64,000 bases of DNA from Burkholderiales bacterium (GTDB lineage Bacteria > Pseudomonadota > Gammaproteobacteria > Burkholderiales > Burkholderiaceae_C). The stretch covers positions 1-64,000 of the forward strand of contig JACPUE010000015.1 of the NCBI GenBank assembly GCA_016192425.1, in the 5' to 3' direction. This document shows, one piece after another, positions 7,337 through 15,839 of this stretch. Every line of letters begins with the position of its first letter. Position 1 is the first letter of the stretch. A program made the position numbers and the translations under genes. The notes beneath the pieces were generated by a model. That model did no database searches and was not told where the DNA came from. It worked only from the letters and a program-made list of their open reading frames with translations.

Positions 7337-7398
7337 GGTGGTTGCAAGTGTAGGGCCTGCACCAAAGCGGCACGCCGCCCATGGGACAATCTGGCCCC

Positions 7399-8238
7399 AT
7401 GACTCCGGAACAGTACGTTCAGAACAAAGCCGCTGCCTCGGGCAGCAGTTTTTATTACGCCTTCCTGTTCCTGCCCCGGCCCCGGCGCGAGGCCATCACG
7501 GCCTTTTACGCCTTCTGCCGCGAAGTGGATGACGTGGTCGATGAAGTGTCGGACCCCGGCGTGGCCGAGCGCAAGCTCGCCTGGTGGCAGGGCGAGGTGG
7601 CCCAGGCCTTCAAGGGGCAGCCCACGCACCCGGTGATGCAGGCGCTCATGCCCCATGCGGGCGCGTACCAGATCGAGCCGCGCCACCTGCTGGGCGTGAT
7701 CGAGGGCTGCCAGATGGACCTGGAACAAAGCCGCTACCTCGACTACCTGGGCCTGCAGCGCTACTGCCACCTGGTGGCCGGTGTGGTGGGCGAAGTGGCG
7801 GCGCGCATTTTTGGCCAGACACAGCAAGCCACCACGCAGTACGCCCACACGCTGGGGCAGGCATTGCAGCTCACCAACATCCTGCGCGACGTAGGCGAAG
7901 ACGCCATGCGCGGGCGCATTTACCTGCCGGTCAACGAGCTGCAGCAGTTTGATGTGAAGGCACACGAAATCCTCAAACGCGAACATTCCGAGCGGTTTGT
8001 GGCGCTCATGCGCTTTCAGGCCGAGCGTGCGCACCGCCTGTACGACCAGGCGCTGGCCCTGCTGCCCGACGCCGACCGGCGCGCCCAAAAGCCCGGGCTG
8101 ATGATGGCCAGCATCTACCGCACGCTGCTGCGCGAGATCGAACACGAGAACTTCCAGGTGCTGCACCAGCGCATCAGCCTCACGCCGCTGCGCAAGTTCT
8201 GGCTCGCGTGGAAGATGCAGGCCCTGGGCCGCATGTAG
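7399..8238 (+). CDS. hpnD: Presqualene diphosphate synthase HpnD
   Basis: This enzyme condenses two farnesyl diphosphates to presqualene diphosphate, the first step of bacterial squalene synthesis for hopanoids. The 279-residue protein belongs to the trans-isoprenyl diphosphate synthase (squalene/phytoene synthase) family. It has both aspartate-rich motifs, EVDDVVDE and [10 protein letters not shown], and the [13 protein letters not shown] opening typical of HpnD. I preferred the ATG at 7399 over one at 7381 because family members start MTP(E/D)xY. hpnE follows after 15 bp. A phytoene synthase is the main alternative, but the HpnE partner argues for squalene. Confidence 0.9.
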
Positions 8239-8253
8239 GCAAGGGCAGACCGC

Positions 8254-9573
8254 ATGCACATCGCCATCCTGGGCGCGGGCTGGGCCGGCCTGGCCGCCGC
8301 ACTGGAACTGACCCAGGCCGGACACCAGGCCACCGTCTTCGAAGCCGCGCGCACCGTGGGCGGCCGGGCGCGGGCACTGCCCATGCCGCTGCCCGACGGC
8401 CGCACGCTGGTGCTGGACAACGGCCAGCACATCCTGATCGGCGCCTACACCGAAAGCCTGCGCTGCATGCGCCAGGTGGGCGTGGATGTGCAAGCCGCAT
8501 TGCTGCGCCTGCCCCTGGCGCTGCGCTTTCCCGACGGCAGCGGTCTGCAGTTGCCCGATGCGCCCGCCCCCTGGAACGCCCTGCGCGGCATTGCCACCGC
8601 ACGCGGCTGGCGCTGGGCCGACCGATGGGCACTGCTGCGCACGGCCCATGCCTGGCAACGCAGCGGCTTTGCCTGCGAGGCCCAGGACACCGTGGCCGAC
8701 CTGTGCCATGCCCTGCCCCAGGGCCTGAAGGACAGCTTCATCGACCCGCTGTGCGTGGCCGCACTCAACACCCCGGCGGACCAGGCCAGCGGCCAGGTCT
8801 TCCTGCGTGTGCTGCAAGACAGCCTGTTTGGCGGACGGGGCAGCAGCGACCTGCTGCTGCCACGCCAGGATCTGGGCCAGGTGTTTCCGCAGGCGGCGCA
8901 GGAATGGCTGCAAGCCCACGGCGCACTGGTGCGCCTGGGCCAGCGCGTGCAATCGCTCAGCGCCGCCCCCCAAGGCGATGGCTGGTTGGTCGATGGCGTG
9001 CCCTTTGACGCCGTGCTGCTGGCCACCCCCAGCACCGAAGCGGCGCGCCTGGTCTCGCAATGCGCGCACACCGCGCCCTATGCCTGGACCGTTGCGCTGT
9101 GCGACTGGGCCGCCAGTGCCCAGGCCCTGCGCTTCGAGGCCATCACCACCGTCTATCTGCAGGCCGTACCCGGCGCAGGCGGGCGCACCCTGCCCCTGCC
9201 CATGCTGGCTTTGCGCAGCAGCCCACAGGCACCTGCGCAGTTTGTCTTTGACCGGGGCATGCTGGGCGGCCCCAGCGGCGTGCTCGCCTTTGTGGCCAGC
9301 GCCAGCCAGGGCGAGCGCGAGCAGATCACCCGACAGGTGCTGGCACAGGCGCGCACGCAACTGGGCCTGGTGCAGGCCGAGCCCGTGCAGACCGTGGTGG
9401 AAAGGCGGGCCACCTTTGCCTGCACACCGGGCTTGCAGCGCCCCGCGGCCCAGATCGCGCCCGGCCTGTGGGCCTGCGGCGACTATGTGCAGGGGCCGTA
9501 TCCGGCGACGCTGGAAGGCGCGGTGCGCAGCGGGGTGGAGGCGGCACGCGGGATCAGCGCAAACCACAGCTGA
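8254..9573 (+). CDS. hpnE: Hydroxysqualene dehydroxylase HpnE
   Basis: This 439-residue FAD-dependent amine-oxidase/phytoene-desaturase family protein should reduce hydroxysqualene to squalene. It opens with the dinucleotide-binding motif ILGAGWAGLAAALELT and the following FEAA...GGRA stretch that contacts FAD. It ends with the ACGDYVQGPYPATLEGAVRSG segment seen in HpnE. It follows hpnD by 15 bp, so the two form an operon. The intermediate enzyme HpnC (hydroxysqualene synthase) is not next to it. Confidence 0.9.
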   Translation: MHIAILGAGWAGLAAALELTQAGHQATVFEAARTVGGRARALPMPLPDGRTLVLDNGQHILIGAYTESLRCMRQVGVDVQAALLRLPLALRFPDGSGLQLPDAPAPWNALRGIATARGWRWADRWALLRTAHAWQRSGFACEAQDTVADLCHALPQGLKDSFIDPLCVAALNTPADQASGQVFLRVLQDSLFGGRGSSDLLLPRQDLGQVFPQAAQEWLQAHGALVRLGQRVQSLSAAPQGDGWLVDGVPFDAVLLATPSTEAARLVSQCAHTAPYAWTVALCDWAASAQALRFEAITTVYLQAVPGAGGRTLPLPMLALRSSPQAPAQFVFDRGMLGGPSGVLAFVASASQGEREQITRQVLAQARTQLGLVQAEPVQTVVERRATFACTPGLQRPAAQIAPGLWACGDYVQGPYPATLEGAVRSGVEAARGISANHS

Positions 9574-9718
9574 CCTGGGCAGTTGCCGATGCCCCTTCCA
9601 CCAGCGTCACAGTTCTGCCATACAGCATCATCCGGGGCATAGAATCCTTCCGCTGCCACGCACAACTTGGCAAACTACAGCACTGCCGCGCAGCATGTGC
9701 GCCACGAAGGGACTTCTC

Positions 9719-10096
9719 ATGCTACCCATGCTTCCATTTCTGGCCGGTATCGCCGTAGGCGCACTTGCCGTCTCCACCACCCGCAGCGGCCGCATTGGGG
9801 CATCCCTGCACCAGGCCAGCGACCACATGCGCGATGCAGCACGCACCGGGGGCAGCCAGCTACAGGCCATGGCCAAGGCCAGCAAGGCGTTCACCCAGCG
9901 CGTCTGGGATGCCGCCGCCACGCCCCAAGCGCCCACCGCCACACCACCCAGTACCGATGCTGTGCCAGAGGCGGCACCCACACCGGCCGCTGCACCCAAG
10001 CGCCGCAGGGCGGCCGCCCCGCGCACCGCCACAGCACCACGCGCAACGGCCAAGCGTACGCCTGCACGCAGCGCTGCCAAGAAAACCGCTCCATGA
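9719..10096 (+). CDS. Small Gly-rich membrane protein with histone-H1-like basic tail
   Basis: This 125-residue protein has no firm family assignment. Residues 5-19 form a short hydrophobic helix (LPFLAGIAVGALAVS), followed by an amphipathic YtxH-like helix to about 63. A Pro/Ala/Thr-rich segment follows, then a tail (93-125) of Lys/Arg-Ala-Pro repeats (KRRRAAAPRTATAPR) like eukaryotic H1 or bacterial AlgP-type tails. The ATG at 9719 has a GAAGG site 8 bp upstream; another ATG lies at 9695. Its stop overlaps the next start (ATGA), and a P1B-ATPase follows. I infer a role as a small membrane-associated component of a metal-storage or metal-export system. Confidence 0.75.
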   Translation: MLPMLPFLAGIAVGALAVSTTRSGRIGASLHQASDHMRDAARTGGSQLQAMAKASKAFTQRVWDAAATPQAPTATPPSTDAVPEAAPTPAAAPKRRRAAAPRTATAPRATAKRTPARSAAKKTAP

Positions 10097-10587
10097 CAGA
10101 AAACGATTTCGAACAGGCCTTGCTGGGCCTGGTTCCCCCCAGCTTTGTGCGTGGCGCCTTGGCCACCGGCATTGTGTCTGCGGTGCAAGACCACCGGCGC
10201 GGACTGGATCTGCTGCAAAGCGCCCTGCTGGGCGGTGCGGCGCTCACCGCAGCCACTGCCGGGGAAGAATGGATCTTCAAGAAAGGGAAAAAAATGGGCA
10301 AGAAAGCCAAGGGCAAAGGCAAGAAGAAGCAGGCGCTGGATCTGCAGCAACTGCAGGCCTTGCTGGGCCAGCGCCCAGCTGGCGGCCTGGCAGCGCTGGG
10401 CGCAGGGCAGCAGTTCCTGCTGGGTGCCGCGCTAGGCGTGGCGGCGACCTATGTGCTGGGAGACGAGCAGTTGCGCGCCAAACTCATCCGCACGGGCCTG
10501 GGGCTGTATGAAAGCCTGGCTGGCGGGCTGGCGGAGATGAAAGAACAAGTGGCTGACATCCAGGCTGAGCGCAGCGCACGCTCGTGA
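10093..10587 (+). CDS. Small Gly/Ala-rich protein with lysine-rich block
   Basis: This 164-residue protein matches no family I can name. Residues 41-56 are a Gly/Ala-rich hydrophobic stretch. Residues 63-79 are almost all Lys and Gly (KKGKKMGKKAKGKGKKK). Residues 98-122 form a second hydrophobic stretch with glycine-zipper spacing (GLAALGAGQQFLLGAALGV), and the C-terminus is amphipathic. It overlaps the upstream small protein by four bases and precedes the P1B-ATPase gene by 87 bp. Small Gly-rich hydrophobic proteins next to a P1B-ATPase are typical of ferrosome (fez) operons, which is why I propose that context. Confidence 0.75.
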   Translation: MTENDFEQALLGLVPPSFVRGALATGIVSAVQDHRRGLDLLQSALLGGAALTAATAGEEWIFKKGKKMGKKAKGKGKKKQALDLQQLQALLGQRPAGGLAALGAGQQFLLGAALGVAATYVLGDEQLRAKLIRTGLGLYESLAGGLAEMKEQVADIQAERSARS

Positions 10588-10595
10588 GCGGGCGA

Positions 10596-10619
10596 CCCGG
10601 TGCAAGCAAGAGCACCGGG
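10596..10619 (+). other. Intergenic hairpin before the P1B-ATPase
   Basis: CCCGGTGC and GCACCGGG form a perfect 8-bp stem with an 8-nt loop between the lysine-rich protein gene and the ATPase gene. No T-tract follows, so it is unlikely to be an intrinsic terminator on the plus strand. It could be an mRNA-stability or differential-expression structure within the operon. Confidence 0.4.
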
Positions 10620-10674
10620 GCCGTATGGCGCAAACGGTGCATGTGCCAGGACACACCGAGAAATTGACGACACG

Positions 10675-12834
10675 ATGCACAGCACGGTTTTTTCCCAATT
10701 GAATGCAGTGCACCGGCTGGAAGGCCGGGTGCGCTGGCGTTTTCGCACCCACGCCCCCTGGCGCAACTGGCCTGCGCTGGAGCAAGCCATTGCAGGCCTG
10801 CCTGGTGTGCTGGACGTGCGCATCAATGCAGCCGCCCATTCACTGGCGGTGCGCTTCGACCCCCAGGCCACGGAGGCAGGCCAGCTCGAATCAGCCCTGC
10901 AAGACCTGCGCCTTACGCCTGTCGATGCCGTCTGCGCACCCCCTGCGCAGGGTGCTCCCGATACCCGCGAAGTGGCGTGCAACGCCGCACTGCTGCTGGG
11001 CTCTGGCCTGCTGCCCCCCGCCGCCCGGGGGGCGCTGACGCTGGCCGCATCGGTACCGCTGTACCGCCACGCCTGGGCCGACCTGCGCAGCGAGGGCTTC
11101 AATTCCCACGTACTGGAAGCGCTGGCGGTGGCCATTTCCACGGCCAGCAAGGACTACACGGCAGCCAACACCACGTTGTTCATGCTGGCCCTGGGCGAGT
11201 ACCTGGAAGAATCCATCGCCCGCCGGTCGGACGACATGCTCAAACGGCTGCTGCGGCCCAACATCGGTACCGTATGGGTGGAGCGCGATGGGCAGGAACT
11301 GCAGGTGGCTGCAGACGCGCTGGAAGTCGGCGACACGGTGGTAGTGGGCGCAGGGGCGACGGTGCCGGTGGACGGCACCGTGCTCGGTGGTGAAGCGCTG
11401 GTCAACGAAGCCGCCATGACGGGCGAAAGCGTGCCGGTGGCGCGCAAGCGGGGCGACCGCATGCTGTCGGGCACCGTGGTGGAGGAAGGACGCATCCGCA
11501 TCTACGCTGAGCATGTGGGCCGGGGCACCGCCGCCGCGCGCATTGCAGACTACGTGGAGCAATCGCTGACCGCCAAGAGCCAGATCCAATTGCAGGCATC
11601 GCGCATGGCCGACCGGCTGGTGCCCGGCGTGCTGGGCCTGGCGGGGGCATCCTGGCTGCTGACGGGTAACAGGCAGCGTGCCGCCGCCGTGCTGCAGGCA
11701 GACTATTCCTGCTCGCTCAAGCTGGCCACGCCTGTGGCATTCAAGTCGTCCATGTTCTTTGCGGGCCAGCGCGGCGTGCTGGTCAAGGGCGCAGGGGTGC
11801 TGGAGCGGCTGGCGCAAACAGACACCTTCGTGTTCGACAAGACCGGGACGCTCACCACGGGCAAGCTCTCGGTCACGGACTCGGTCACGTTCGACGCGCA
11901 GTTCACCGCCAAGGATCTGATCGATCTGGCCGCCTCGGTGGAAGAACACTACTTCCATCCCCTGGCCATGGCCGTGGTGGAGGCAGCGCGCCGCAACCAT
12001 GGCCGCCATTTCGACCACAAGGAGGTGGAGTTCATCGCTGCGCACGGAGTGGCCAGCGTGATCGACGGGCGCCGCATCGTCGTCGGCTCGCGCCACTTTG
12101 TCGAAGAGGACGAAGGCGTGCCCATCGACGCGGCACAGCGCCGCAGCGTGGACCGGCTCTTCCGCCAGGGCAAGACGCTGCTGTACATCGGTTTCGGCGG
12201 GCGCCTGATCGGGGTGATTGCGCTCAAGGACACGGTGCGCGAGAACAGCCGCGCCACCATCGGCCGCCTGCGCGCCCTGGGCGTGCGGCGCATTGTCATG
12301 CTCACCGGAGACCACCACAGCCGCGCGGCCGAACTGGCGCAGGCACTGGGCCTGGACGCATTCCACGCCGAACTGATGCCCCAGCAAAAGGCCGAACTCG
12401 TGGCGCAGATGAAGGCCCAGGGCGCGCGCATCGCCTTCGTGGGAGATGGCATCAACGACGCGCCGGCACTGGCCGGAGCCGAAGTGGGAATCGCCATGCA
12501 GCAAGGGGCCGACATCGCCCGGCTCACCTCGGATGTGGCGCTGCTGGAAGACTCCATCGAGCGGGTGGCCGATGTGAAGGAAATCGCCAATGCCACCATG
12601 CAACTCATCGATCGCAACTACCGGCTGACCGTGGGCGCCAACACGGGCATCCTGGGGGCGGCGGCGCTGGGCCTGTTGCGGCCCATCACCACCTCGGTGC
12701 TGCACAATGGCACGACCATTGCCATTCTGCTCAATGCGCTGCGCGGCGGGCAAAAGACCCTGCGCGCACGCAAGACACCTCATCCTGCAAGCAGCCCCCC
12801 GGCGGCCAAGGTCACAGGAAAAAAACCTACTTGA
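10675..12834 (+). CDS. P1B-type metal-transporting ATPase with HMA2-like N-terminus (FezB/P1B-6-like)
   Basis: This 719-residue P-type ATPase moves a metal ion across a membrane with ATP. It shows TGES (from residue 249), the phosphorylation motif DKTGT with Asp388, the P1B-specific His-Pro pair (428-429) and the hinge GDGINDAP (590-597). The membrane metal motif is SCS (345-347, DYSCSLKLATP) instead of CPC, CPH, SPC or TPC. The N-terminus (12-64) is a degenerate HMA domain without CxxC (HMA2-like). These traits fit the group that includes the ferrosome ATPase FezB, so iron is the likeliest substrate; manganese or zinc are alternatives. I chose ATG 10675 over GTG 10600 because the HMA-like domain starts right after it; the ribosome binding site is weak. 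The 3' end overlaps the convergent gene by 8 bp. Confidence 0.88.
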   Translation: MHSTVFSQLNAVHRLEGRVRWRFRTHAPWRNWPALEQAIAGLPGVLDVRINAAAHSLAVRFDPQATEAGQLESALQDLRLTPVDAVCAPPAQGAPDTREVACNAALLLGSGLLPPAARGALTLAASVPLYRHAWADLRSEGFNSHVLEALAVAISTASKDYTAANTTLFMLALGEYLEESIARRSDDMLKRLLRPNIGTVWVERDGQELQVAADALEVGDTVVVGAGATVPVDGTVLGGEALVNEAAMTGESVPVARKRGDRMLSGTVVEEGRIRIYAEHVGRGTAAARIADYVEQSLTAKSQIQLQASRMADRLVPGVLGLAGASWLLTGNRQRAAAVLQADYSCSLKLATPVAFKSSMFFAGQRGVLVKGAGVLERLAQTDTFVFDKTGTLTTGKLSVTDSVTFDAQFTAKDLIDLAASVEEHYFHPLAMAVVEAARRNHGRHFDHKEVEFIAAHGVASVIDGRRIVVGSRHFVEEDEGVPIDAAQRRSVDRLFRQGKTLLYIGFGGRLIGVIALKDTVRENSRATIGRLRALGVRRIVMLTGDHHSRAAELAQALGLDAFHAELMPQQKAELVAQMKAQGARIAFVGDGINDAPALAGAEVGIAMQQGADIARLTSDVALLEDSIERVADVKEIANATMQLIDRNYRLTVGANTGILGAAALGLLRPITTSVLHNGTTIAILLNALRGGQKTLRARKTPHPASSPPAAKVTGKKPT

Positions 12835-13294
12835 GCAGATGGCGGCGGTGCACCCACAGGTGCATCCCCAGGGCATGCAGAAACAGGATGCCCGTGAGCG
12901 TATGCCAGCGCTTGGCGCCCTGCGCCGCCAGCAGCATGGACAGCGCCAGACTGCCCAGCATGGTGCGCTTGGCCCAGCGGTTGGCCTGCTGGCGACGGGT
13001 CTGGCCCATGGGGGCGCGCATTCTGCGCCGCTGCTGCATGGCACCCTCGGGCGGCGGAGCTAAAGGCAGCAGCCCCCCCAGCAGCGCACCGATATGCTGG
13101 TGGCTTTGCGCCTGGGTCCACTGCGCAGCGTCGTAGTACACCACCAGGCTCGCAGCCTGCAGCTTGGGTTCCACCTGGGTCACCGCCTGGTACTGGCCCG
13201 CCTGTGCAGCCAGTTCCTGCAGCAGCGCAGGGCTGCGCAGGGCCTCATGGCGCACGCGCAGGCGGCCGGGGACGGAAGCAACAATGGCACGCAT
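12827..13294 (-). CDS. HMA2-like domain protein with two C-terminal membrane helices
   Basis: This 155-residue protein has an N-terminal half (residues 5-57) that resembles the ATPase N-terminus: VPGRLRVRHEA here against LEGRVRWRFRT there, each followed by a Val-Ile-rich strand ending in YYD or FDP. It lacks CxxC. A basic linker (89-110) leads to two hydrophobic segments (111-125 and 131-148). The start at 13294 has an AAAGGCG site upstream. It runs convergently to the ATPase, overlapping it tail to tail by 8 bp, and lies 26 bp downstream of the UPF0114 gene. I infer a partner of the ATPase (FezC-like). Confidence 0.75.
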   Translation of the reverse strand: MRAIVASVPGRLRVRHEALRSPALLQELAAQAGQYQAVTQVEPKLQAASLVVYYDAAQWTQAQSHQHIGALLGGLLPLAPPPEGAMQQRRRMRAPMGQTRRQQANRWAKRTMLGSLALSMLLAAQGAKRWHTLTGILFLHALGMHLWVHRRHLLK

Positions 13295-13320
13295 GGTGTC
13301 GCCTTTCTGGTCTGCAAAAA

Positions 13321-13926
13321 TCAATGCCCGTCAGACGGGGCGTGGGGCTTGCTCAGCAGCCGGTCCGTGAGCGCAATGGCCAGCGCGCTGAGCAGGAACA
13401 CCACGTGGATGATGGTCTGCCACATCAGCACCTTCACCTCGTAGTTGGCGGCATTGATGAAGGTCTTGAGCAAATGGATCGAGCTGATGCCGATGATGGC
13501 CGTACCCAGCTTGACCTTGAGCACCGAGGCGTTGACGTGGCTCAGCCATTCGGGCTGGTCGGGGTGGCCTTCGAGGTGCAGGCGGCTCACAAAGGTTTCG
13601 TAGCCGCCCACGATGACCATGATGAGCAGGTTGGAAATCATCACCACGTCGATCAGCGCCAGCACCACCAGCATGATGATGGTCTCGTTCAGCGCCGTGA
13701 TCTGCACATCGGTCTTGTAGCCGATGCTGGTAATCAGCGCCTGCAGCGCGTGGCCGTTGCCAAAGGCGGCCTCCAGCAGGTGCACCAGTTCCACCCAGAA
13801 GTGGAACACGTACACCGCCTGCGCCGCGATCAGGCCCAGGTACAACGGCAACTGCAGCCAGCGGCTGGCAAAAATCAGGGCAGGCAGGGGGCGCAGGGCG
13901 GCACTCTCGCGGCGGTCTGTGGTCAT
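13321..13926 (-). CDS. UPF0114 (YqhA-type) membrane protein
   Basis: This 201-residue protein has three or four transmembrane helices and the conserved [20 protein letters not shown] and [11 protein letters not shown] segments of the UPF0114/TIGR00645 family. The function is unknown in all members. It is upstream of, and probably co-transcribed with, the HMA2-like protein, which links it to the metal-ATPase locus. The 158 bp between its start and the chemoreceptor gene hold one copy of the dispersed repeat (14032-14081). Confidence 0.88.
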
Positions 13927-14031
13927 GGCAGGGCTGGTGTGGAAAAGGCCGCAGATTGTAGAAGACCTCGCAAGCGCCCGCCTGCGCCCTGCCCAGTACC
14001 CTGCGGGGCATTGTCATCATTTAACAAAAAA

Positions 14032-14081
14032 CGGCTCTAGCGCTTATCAATAAAGCGCTAGCAGCTATGATTTTGATAGCA
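14032..14081 (+). repeat. Dispersed repeat family A, copy 1
   Basis: CGGCTCTAGCGCTTATCAAT followed by AAGCGCTAGCAGCTATGATTTTGATAGCA. The unit is about 50 bp with two short inverted repeats: AGCGCTT/AAGCGCT and GCTATnnnnnnATAGC. It lies between the UPF0114 gene start and the end of the chemoreceptor gene. Confidence 0.8.
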
Positions 14082-14084
14082 AAC

Positions 14085-15839
14085 TCAGAAATTCTCCCAG
14101 TCGCCATCCTTGGATCCAGCAGAGCGGGCCGGTGCTGGCGCAGCAGCAATGCGTTGCGGCGCTGCAGGGGCCCTGGCGGGCTTGGCAGCGCCCGGCAGCG
14201 CCGACTTGGCCCTGGCAGGTGCGGGCGCCACCCGGGGGCTGGCACTTGCCGCAGCGGCAGCACGGGCAGGCGCTGGGGTACGGCTGACCGCCATGGAACC
14301 CACGTTGAACACCGACACCACCTCGCTCAGCCGCTGCGCCTGGTCGCGCAGCGAGGTGGCGGCGGCGGTTGATTGTTCGACCAGCGCCGCGTTCTGCTGC
14401 GTCATCTGGTCCAGGTGCGTGACCGCCTGGTTGACCTGTGCAATGCCGTCGCGCTGCTCGGAGGACGAGGCGGTGATCTCGCCGATCAGGTCGCTCACGC
14501 GCTGCACGCTGGACACGATCTCCTCCATGCTCTGGCCCGCCTCGGCCACCTGCTGGGAGCCGGTCTCCACGTTCTCGACCGAGGCGTTGATGAGCTGCTT
14601 GATTTCCTTGGCCGCCTCGGCGCTGCGCCCGGCCAGGCTGCGCACCTCGCTGGCCACCACGGCAAAGCCCCGGCCCTGCTCGCCTGCGCGCGCCGCTTCC
14701 ACCGCAGCATTCAGGGCCAGGATGTTGGTCTGGAAGGCGATGCCGTCGATCACGCTGATGATGTCGGAAATCTTGCGCGAGCTGTGCGTGATCTGCTCCA
14801 TGCTCGCCACCACCTGGCCGACCACCTGCCCGCCGCGCGTGGCGGCCTGCGCGGCGTTGGCCGCCAACTGGTTGGCCTGGCGTGCGGTGTCGGCGGACTG
14901 CGTGACCGTGGCGGTCAGCTCCTCCATGCTGGATGCCGTCTGCTCCAGGTTGGAGGCCGTCTGCTCGGTGCGCGCCGACAGATCCTGGTTGCCGGTGGCA
15001 ATTTCCGTAGAGGCCAGCGACACGGCCTCCACGCCGGTGCGCACCTCGCCCACCACGCCACGCAGCCGCTCGGCCATGCGTGAGAGCGCGCGCAGCATGT
15101 GGCCGAATTCATCCTTGCGCTCGGCGTGCAGTTCCCGTGTGAGATCCCCGGCGGCAATGGCATCGATCAACTCGCCCGCCTGGTCCAGCGGCACGGTGAT
15201 GGAGCGCACCAGCTTCCAGGCCAGGAACAGGAAGCCCCCCATCAGCACCAGCGAAGCCGCCAAGCCCTGCACGGCGTAAGCAGTGTTGTGGCTCTGCGCA
15301 TCGGCCACAATGGCCTCACGCCGTTTCTCCAAAACGCCCACAAACTCATCCTGCGCCTTGAGGTATTTAGCAATGGTGGGCGTCAACTGCTCGTCGGCAA
15401 AGCGCTGCGTCTCCACCGCATCCCCAGCGCCCTTGAGTTCCCAGGTCTTTGCAGTTGCTGCCAGGGTCAGCTTTCGCTCAGCCTGCACTTTGTCCAGAGC
15501 GGCTTTCTCCTCTGGATCTTGGGCCTGGTTAATGATCTCTTGCTGGATTTTGTTGATATCCGCAATGATGGCCTTGATCCTTGCGTCGTATTGTTGCGCC
15601 AACACGGCATCGGTCGTCACGGCTCCACCCATGACCATGGTCACAGCCGTCTCGGTGGCACCGCGCCATCGAATGGCCTTGCTGATGCGCCCCTCGATGG
15701 CAATCACCTGCTCGATGGCCCGCGCCATGGAATTGTTGGCGCGGTACTGCTGAAAGCCAGAAATCACCAGCATGGCCAGCATGAGCACCAGGAACATGCC
15801 CCACAGCTTGCGGGGCACACGGATATTGTCGAGTTGCAT
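14085..15839 (-). CDS. Methyl-accepting chemotaxis protein with CheR-binding C-terminus
   Basis: This 584-residue inner-membrane chemoreceptor has a first helix at about 12-32, a periplasmic four-helix-bundle sensor (TarH/4HB-like) to about 190, a second helix and a HAMP domain. A cytoplasmic signalling coiled coil contains the invariant tip region (EVRSLAGRSAEAAKEI nearby). After the signalling domain comes an Ala/Pro-rich linker of about 60 residues ending in DWENF, matching the xWxxF pentapeptide that tethers CheR or CheB. The start at 15839 is chosen because MQLDNIRVPRKLWGMF gives a normal N-terminal anchor and a GGAG site lies just upstream. No che genes are adjacent. Confidence 0.92.
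   Translation of the reverse strand: MQLDNIRVPRKLWGMFLVLMLAMLVISGFQQYRANNSMARAIEQVIAIEGRISKAIRWRGATETAVTMVMGGAVTTDAVLAQQYDARIKAIIADINKIQQEIINQAQDPEEKAALDKVQAERKLTLAATAKTWELKGAGDAVETQRFADEQLTPTIAKYLKAQDEFVGVLEKRREAIVADAQSHNTAYAVQGLAASLVLMGGFLFLAWKLVRSITVPLDQAGELIDAIAAGDLTRELHAERKDEFGHMLRALSRMAERLRGVVGEVRTGVEAVSLASTEIATGNQDLSARTEQTASNLEQTASSMEELTATVTQSADTARQANQLAANAAQAATRGGQVVGQVVASMEQITHSSRKISDIISVIDGIAFQTNILALNAAVEAARAGEQGRGFAVVASEVRSLAGRSAEAAKEIKQLINASVENVETGSQQVAEAGQSMEEIVSSVQRVSDLIGEITASSSEQRDGIAQVNQAVTHLDQMTQQNAALVEQSTAAATSLRDQAQRLSEVVSVFNVGSMAVSRTPAPARAAAAASASPRVAPAPARAKSALPGAAKPARAPAAPQRIAAAPAPARSAGSKDGDWENF

Follow-up and report, generated by a model that had tools for sequence, protein, structure and literature searches.

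Positions 9719-13294 of the window (the whole 64,000-nucleotide stretch of DNA that was analysed, from contig JACPUE010000015.1 of a Burkholderiales bacterium) very probably encode a ferrosome (fez) cluster of the kind found in Rhodopseudomonas, Azospirillum and Thiobacillus. The simplest account of its origin is horizontal acquisition as a single insert between hpnE and the gene for a UPF0114 protein. Ferrosomes are membrane-bounded iron stores of bacteria. The fez reading is supported by homology, gene order, an empty insertion site in relatives, the position of the ATPase in the phylogeny, and conserved histidines. The probable family assignment is drawn from homologous loci known from their genes, not from experimentally studied Fez sequences. 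A literature search found no paper on a ferrosome or P1B-6 gene cluster in Comamonadaceae (we take P1B-6 to be the label for the ATPases of the ferrosome group); this is not a claim that the cluster is unpublished.

Gene content and homology

The features of the region are as follows.

9552..13320, no strand: inserted segment, missing from two same-genus relatives (blastn, gene order)
9719..10096, + strand: g1, 125 aa; small membrane protein with a glycine-rich hydrophobic N-terminal start and an Ala/Pro/Lys/Arg (histone-H1-like) tail
10093..10587, + strand: g2, 164 aa; fused small membrane protein with a KKGKKMGKKAKGKGKKK block
10675..12834, + strand: FezB-type P1B ATPase, 719 aa, with an HMA2-like N-terminus
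12827..13294, - strand: FezC-type protein, 155 aa; HMA2 domain, linker and two predicted membrane helices
13321..13926, - strand: UPF0114 protein, beyond the FezC gene on the same strand and outside the cluster

The sequence-only reading of this DNA had described a P1B-ATPase with an SCS motif, two small proteins, a convergent HMA2-like protein and a UPF0114 protein at 9719-13926. All of the genes it named were found. The cluster is present at 9719-13294, but the end at 13926 includes one extra gene, that of the UPF0114 protein. An ATGA overlap joins the end of g1 to the start of g2. The Pfam search gave no match for g1, which is a homologue of the third of the six genes in the Rhodopseudomonas cluster, and g2 matched DUF5132 weakly (E 8e-4, below the cut-off). 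The DKTGT, TGES and GDGIND motifs of the ATPase are all intact, with the phosphorylated Asp of DKTGT at about 11836-11838, and HNGTT occurs close to the C-terminus; in the membrane motif, ADYSCSLKL, SCS replaces CPC (about 11707-11715). The N-terminal HMA domain is degenerate (23.7 bits, cut-off 24.8). The FezC gene is convergent with the ATPase gene, their 3' ends overlapping by 8 bp; its ORF opens at 13324, and the ATG at 13294 fits the homologues. Taken as a 165-aa ORF, the protein falls below the cut-offs for HMA_2 (23.6 bits, cut-off 30) and DUF4405 (E 0.0056).

Profiles were built from nine outside loci with six-gene clusters (Rhodopseudomonas-genus L178, Rhodoblastus L080, Magnetospirillum L064, Azospirillum L045, L071 and L079, Azoarcus L062 and L065, and betaproteobacterium L104) and run on the 489 window ORFs of at least 45 aa. 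The loci were chosen outside the window's own small clade, which makes this an independent test. The g1 profile matched the window g1 (E 1.1e-7). The g2a and g2b profiles (E 5.3e-9 and 1.8e-24) matched consecutive stretches of a single ORF, and g2 is therefore a g2a and g2b fusion, its N-terminal part being g2a and its C-terminal part g2b/DUF5132-like. The FezC profile matched the convergent protein (E 2.9e-26) and the N-terminal part of the ATPase (E 1.2e-11), and the HMA2 profile matched only the ATPase N-terminus (E 5.5e-16) and FezC (E 4.7e-13); these two are not fully separate tests, since the HMA2 and FezC models took in 27 and 21 ORFs from the nine loci, including each other's HMA2 parts. 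Among the 489 ORFs, none beyond those of the cluster matched the outside profiles at E≤10, so the cluster is not a product of chance. The per-locus counts and gene orders given below are based on earlier family profiles, built by iteration at E≤1e-3 over the very loci that are counted, the window among them. Profile homology, gene order and the tree position of the ATPase all support the ferrosome interpretation that had been proposed for this region.

Related clusters in other bacteria

A scan of genome contigs supplied 80 named loci, the top-ranking ones among 581 confirmed stretches, and is not a census. Two genomes of the genus Rhodopseudomonas carry six co-directional genes, which the profiles identify as FezC, HMA2, g1, g2a, g2b and FezB. 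The contigs are 5.27 and 5.32 Mb long, and the cluster is located at fractions 0.484 and 0.469 of their length. If R. palustris CGA009 has about 4,836 genes in total, as we assume, its gene 2333 lies at 0.482, close to the relative position of this cluster. From gene count and relative position we infer that the Rhodopseudomonas-genus cluster corresponds to RPA2333-2338. R. palustris is reported to make ferrosomes from six fez genes (RPA2333-2338 in CGA009), and PMC6879726 implicates rpa2333-2338 in metal ion transport and describes them as downregulated in low light, as are many iron genes. Among 16 genomes of the genus, FezB of the common type is found in four (92-100%; BR0M22 included), a divergent one (42%) in one, and none in 11 (E≤1e-100). 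The divergent FezB belongs to a fez-type cluster beside feoB (L180, genome G719), in a genome without the common type.

Genomes of the genus have homologues of the window's g1, both g2 parts, FezB and FezC side by side on a single strand, and the FezB of Rhodopseudomonas falls in the window's clade. In the Rhodopseudomonas type, however, an HMA2 gene is present, g2a and g2b are separate, FezC is in line and the g1 tail is acidic, whereas the window lacks the HMA2 gene and has g2a and g2b fused, FezC convergent and a basic g1 tail. The order in the window, g1, fused g2, FezB and convergent FezC, is shared by Thiobacillus sp. (L058), Hydrogenophilus sp. (L059) and a betaproteobacterial MAG (L061), whose FezB proteins are in the window's 5-row clade. 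These three differ from the window in keeping HMA2 upstream of g1, and in having feoA immediately downstream, accompanied by feoB in L059 and L061, where the window has UPF0114.

Desulfovibrio magneticus has a fez cluster with the gene order presumably fezABC, and Clostridioides difficile has fezAB. The order small membrane protein, FezB, FezC is also found in the Desulfovibrionaceae loci L121, L126, L130 and L136, where neither g1 nor HMA2 has a match. According to PMC12574912, ferrosomes of C. difficile require FezA and FezB.

Phylogeny of the ATPase

The 88 FezB-type ATPases and the 13 ordinary P1B ATPases, four of the latter from the window's own genome, are separated in the tree with an SH-aLRT of 100. 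The window ATPase is placed in a 39-row clade (SH-aLRT 100) together with Rhodopseudomonas (sp. BR0M22), Rhodoblastus, Magnetospirillum, Azospirillum, Thauera, Azotobacter and others, and within a 5-row clade (SH-aLRT 96) with Thiobacillus, Hydrogenophilus, a Rhodocyclaceae MAG and a betaproteobacterial MAG. The tree was calculated by a quick method with SH-aLRT and no bootstrap, and the program warned of long, compositionally odd rows; short FezB rows (L093, L107, L115) and duplicates (L030, L051, L054, L056) were left out, and L053, for which the search gave no FezB ORF, is outside the tree. The membrane motif is xCx in 86 of the 88 FezB-type sequences (SCA 72, ACA 10, SCS 2, SCV 1, ACP 1) and CPC in 11 of the 13 ordinary ones (SPC 1, CPG 1). 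Tree and SCS motif indicate that the window protein belongs to the ferrosome-group P1B ATPases.

One could assume that the gene encodes an ordinary Cu, Zn or Cd exporter with small neighbours by chance. It fits the same overall P1B family models as the CopA/ZntA type: TIGR01525 is well above its cut-off (483.6 bits against 346.25), TIGR01512, the cadmium family, also scores above the threshold (367.2 bits against 313.5), and the solved structures closest to it are those of copper, cadmium and zinc pumps. However, the CopA/ZntA type has CPC, as do the four P1B ATPases of the own genome in the tree, where the window ATPase has SCS and most FezB-type sequences SCA. The separate tree positions, the conserved neighbours and the iron genes around the relatives also speak against an ordinary exporter, which we regard as extremely improbable; tree and motif are the grounds for rejecting an ordinary Cu/Zn exporter. 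Placement apart from the 13 ordinary ATPases is what the fez interpretation had called for.

In phage records, the P1B ATPases among the five matches listed, of 65, are at most 39% identical to that of the window; two unannotated human faecal 'Bacteriophage sp.' records (MT835525.1 and MT836292.1) encode P1B ATPases 38-39% identical over 76% of the length of the window ATPase, which may be true phage genes or contaminating bacterial ones.

Small proteins and the missing HMA2 gene

Within 7.5 kb of FezB, g1 has a match in all 39 clade loci, window included, and in 57 of the 88 loci listed. The corresponding counts are 39/39 (window included) and 83/88 for g2/g2b, 30/39 and 69/88 for FezC, and 37/39 and 58/88 for HMA2. 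Some of these loci reach contig edges, so a missing match at a locus is not proof of absence. The small proteins are thus kept with the ATPase throughout the clade, as judged from profiles iterated on the same loci; this too is an outcome in favour of the fez interpretation, and the suggestion that the basic-tailed, histone-like protein g1 is a component of the cluster holds up. A g2/g2b-type protein, matched near FezB in 83 of the 88 loci listed, may be the FezA-type partner. The g2b type is fused into the window g2, and from position and type we propose the g2b part of g2 as a putative FezA-like partner. The g2 fusion is found in L058, L059 and L061 too, and in most relatives g2a and g2b are separate. 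Past residue 55, the net charge of g1 is -4 in Rhodopseudomonas and -4 to -6 in five of six Azospirillum loci (+3 in L071), and +16 to +19 in Lautropia, +10 in Thiobacillus and +9 in the window.

A single-domain HMA2 gene was not found by profile among the 489 window ORFs, nor in the own genome by a weak single-sequence search that missed even the HMA2-like parts of FezB and FezC. With homologues of five of the six genes, the window cluster does not count as a full member of the six-gene Rhodopseudomonas subtype; fez gene sets smaller than six occur in other lineages. Given the missing HMA2 gene, the cluster might be incomplete. It could be decaying, HMA2 having been lost from the insert and functional ferrosomes no longer being made, and the finding that only the window and L085 lack an HMA2 match among the 39 clade loci would agree with this. 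On the other hand, the four remaining genes are open, the catalytic motifs and both FezC histidines are kept, the GC content of the genes (0.64-0.70) resembles the 0.658 of the window, and many more distant clusters have no HMA2 match either. We therefore consider a decaying cluster quite unlikely.

Conserved histidines of FezC

All 26 FezC-type proteins in the alignment have P9, G10, R11, R13, S49, H131 and H145. The AlphaFold model of the window protein (25-row alignment; mean pLDDT 86.7, pTM 0.60) combines a small alpha/beta domain with two long helices (100-125 and 128-154), and His131 and His145 of the 155 residues both lie on the second and last helix. A fold search of the model against the PDB gave no significant match; the best E value was 0.032, and the weak matches were mostly to HMA folds. 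PMC11334425 reports heme b binding by the Desulfurispirillum indicum FezC and a model in which homodimerisation creates the heme sites. The two invariant histidines, as read from the alignment, would fit a FezC reported to bind heme b, and the window FezC may bind heme as well. H131, H145 and the two predicted helices indicate that the protein belongs with FezC, a DUF4405-like small cytochrome with conserved membrane histidines.

Iron context and regulation

In relatives, the cluster adjoins an iron ABC transporter, FeoA, TonB receptors and FecR, and feoB is matched within 7.5 kb of FezB in 9 of the 39 clade loci and 19 of the 88 loci listed (a few matches, such as that in L062, are short or weak). 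This iron linkage is not present at the window locus, as the genome's own feoB is located on another contig. Simple consensus counting found no Fur- or FNR-like site upstream of g1, FezB and FezC that was better than in shuffled sequences; a sigma-70 promoter scan found none (0.4 in shuffles), and terminators numbered 4 versus 3.1 in shuffles.

The association with iron genes would also fit a plasma-membrane Fe(II) efflux or detoxification pump that exports across the inner membrane, with the small proteins as accessory subunits and no organelle. FezB-type ATPases are P1B pumps, the clusters of relatives adjoin feoAB or other iron genes, sequence alone cannot place the pump in one membrane or the other, and the window version is without the HMA2 partner. 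However, the conservation of several small glycine-zipper proteins, g1 and g2/g2b in the counts given above, exceeds the needs of a pump, and R. palustris, whose genus has the homologous six-gene cluster, reportedly makes its ferrosomes from six fez genes. An efflux pump is unlikely in our view, and the ferrosome reading is preferred.

Several further associations were seen around the related clusters. Genes for feoA or feoB lie beside the fez cluster in L054-L057, L059-L061, L069, L072, L077, L080, L082, L105, L108 and L113, and feoA alone in L058; this adjacency in many lineages ties ferrous iron uptake to storage. A ferritin-like helical protein is encoded within 7.5 kb of FezB in 14 of the 39 clade loci and 28 of the 88 loci listed. 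This unannotated protein of about 240 aa is located between HMA2 and g1 in many fez clusters (e.g., L049:12110-12823, - strand); the L049 protein has no Pfam match, and its Arcobacter counterpart in L046 is annotated as DUF2202. It may serve the cluster as a ferritin-like partner in iron handling or redox reactions; a weak single-sequence search did not find such a partner in the own genome. Two FezB-type ATPases are found a few kb apart in L098, L100, L118, L124, L134 and L135, and possibly form an import/export pair.

Insertion site and horizontal acquisition

Two same-genus relatives (G022 and G023) have hpnE followed by UPF0114 and then an MCP gene. Window positions 9001-9551 and 13321-14198 align by blastn to the relatives' loci (L158 and L159), where only 46 bp separate the two flanks, and 9552-13320 is therefore an insertion. 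The hpnE protein is 95% identical in the two relatives. The UPF0114 protein is 94% identical and lies beside hpnE in these relatives, which are without the insert; it is thus a resident of the site and not, as had been suggested, an extension of the cluster. The empty site in two relatives rules out UPF0114 as a cluster component. Of 40 genomes, 20 have UPF0114, among them the own genome, and the only other of these 20 with a FezB-type match (E≤1e-110) is G044, where the two genes are on different contigs; in the 96 loci searched, the UPF0114 model matched one ORF, the window's own. To the left, two genes at window positions 7381-9573 (+ strand), which we take to be hpnD and hpnE (squalene/hopanoid synthesis), end at the edge of the insert, and the last hpnE codons differ from those of the two relatives at the insert start. 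The best plasmid match of the neighbouring MCP gene is to an Acidovorax plasmid (67%), which would agree with a Comamonadaceae host but is no proof of one.

At E≤1e-100 the ATPase is found in only one of 399 sampled genomes of the same family, the window's own, and at E≤1e-110 in 15 of 399 sampled genomes of the order, own included. The description of the cluster as a Comamonadaceae version consequently does not stand, and the distribution within the family looks like a single acquisition. Two same-family genomes with weak FezC matches (G270 and G174) have no evident ATPase or HMA2 ORF, as judged from the first 60 residues per ORF. The roughly 3.8-kb insert that separates hpnE from the resident UPF0114 gene was, judging by sequence comparison, most simply acquired horizontally; loss in the relatives is a less simple explanation. 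Clusters of this kind also occur on Azospirillum plasmids. The GC content of the cluster genes, compared with that of the window, is uninformative on transfer, and the repeats listed (20 direct families, 25 inverted pairs) include none that pairs the two ends of the insert.

Proposed function and implications

We infer the metal identity and transport direction of FezB, the roles of g1 and g2, and the formation of an organelle in the source organism. FezB would pump ferrous iron into the vesicle lumen, and FezC, a small protein with an HMA2 domain and presumed heme b, would carry electrons across the organelle membrane and adjust the redox state of the iron. The small glycine-zipper membrane proteins g1 and fused g2 may shape the vesicle and perhaps retain its anionic mineral by means of their helices and basic segments. 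A more specific proposal is that g1 and the polybasic g2 segment form a lineage-specific, histone-H1-like cationic ferrosome layer. Such a layer would nucleate or retain iron phosphate or polyphosphate, or else anchor the organelle to the nucleoid, and the four genes without HMA2 would be a minimal, self-sufficient cassette that travels between bacteria as one insert; we put this forward as a rather unlikely conjecture.

The cluster adds a fez-type system to a family whose 398 other sampled genomes are without the ATPase at the threshold used here (E≤1e-100), and the clean empty site shows that it is one compact insert. The comparison also yields working family labels for the Rhodopseudomonas-type cluster, namely FezC, HMA2, g1, g2a, g2b and FezB. 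With four genes, the cluster may approach the minimum required for a ferrosome, and the question of which small proteins build the organelle would then be directly testable.
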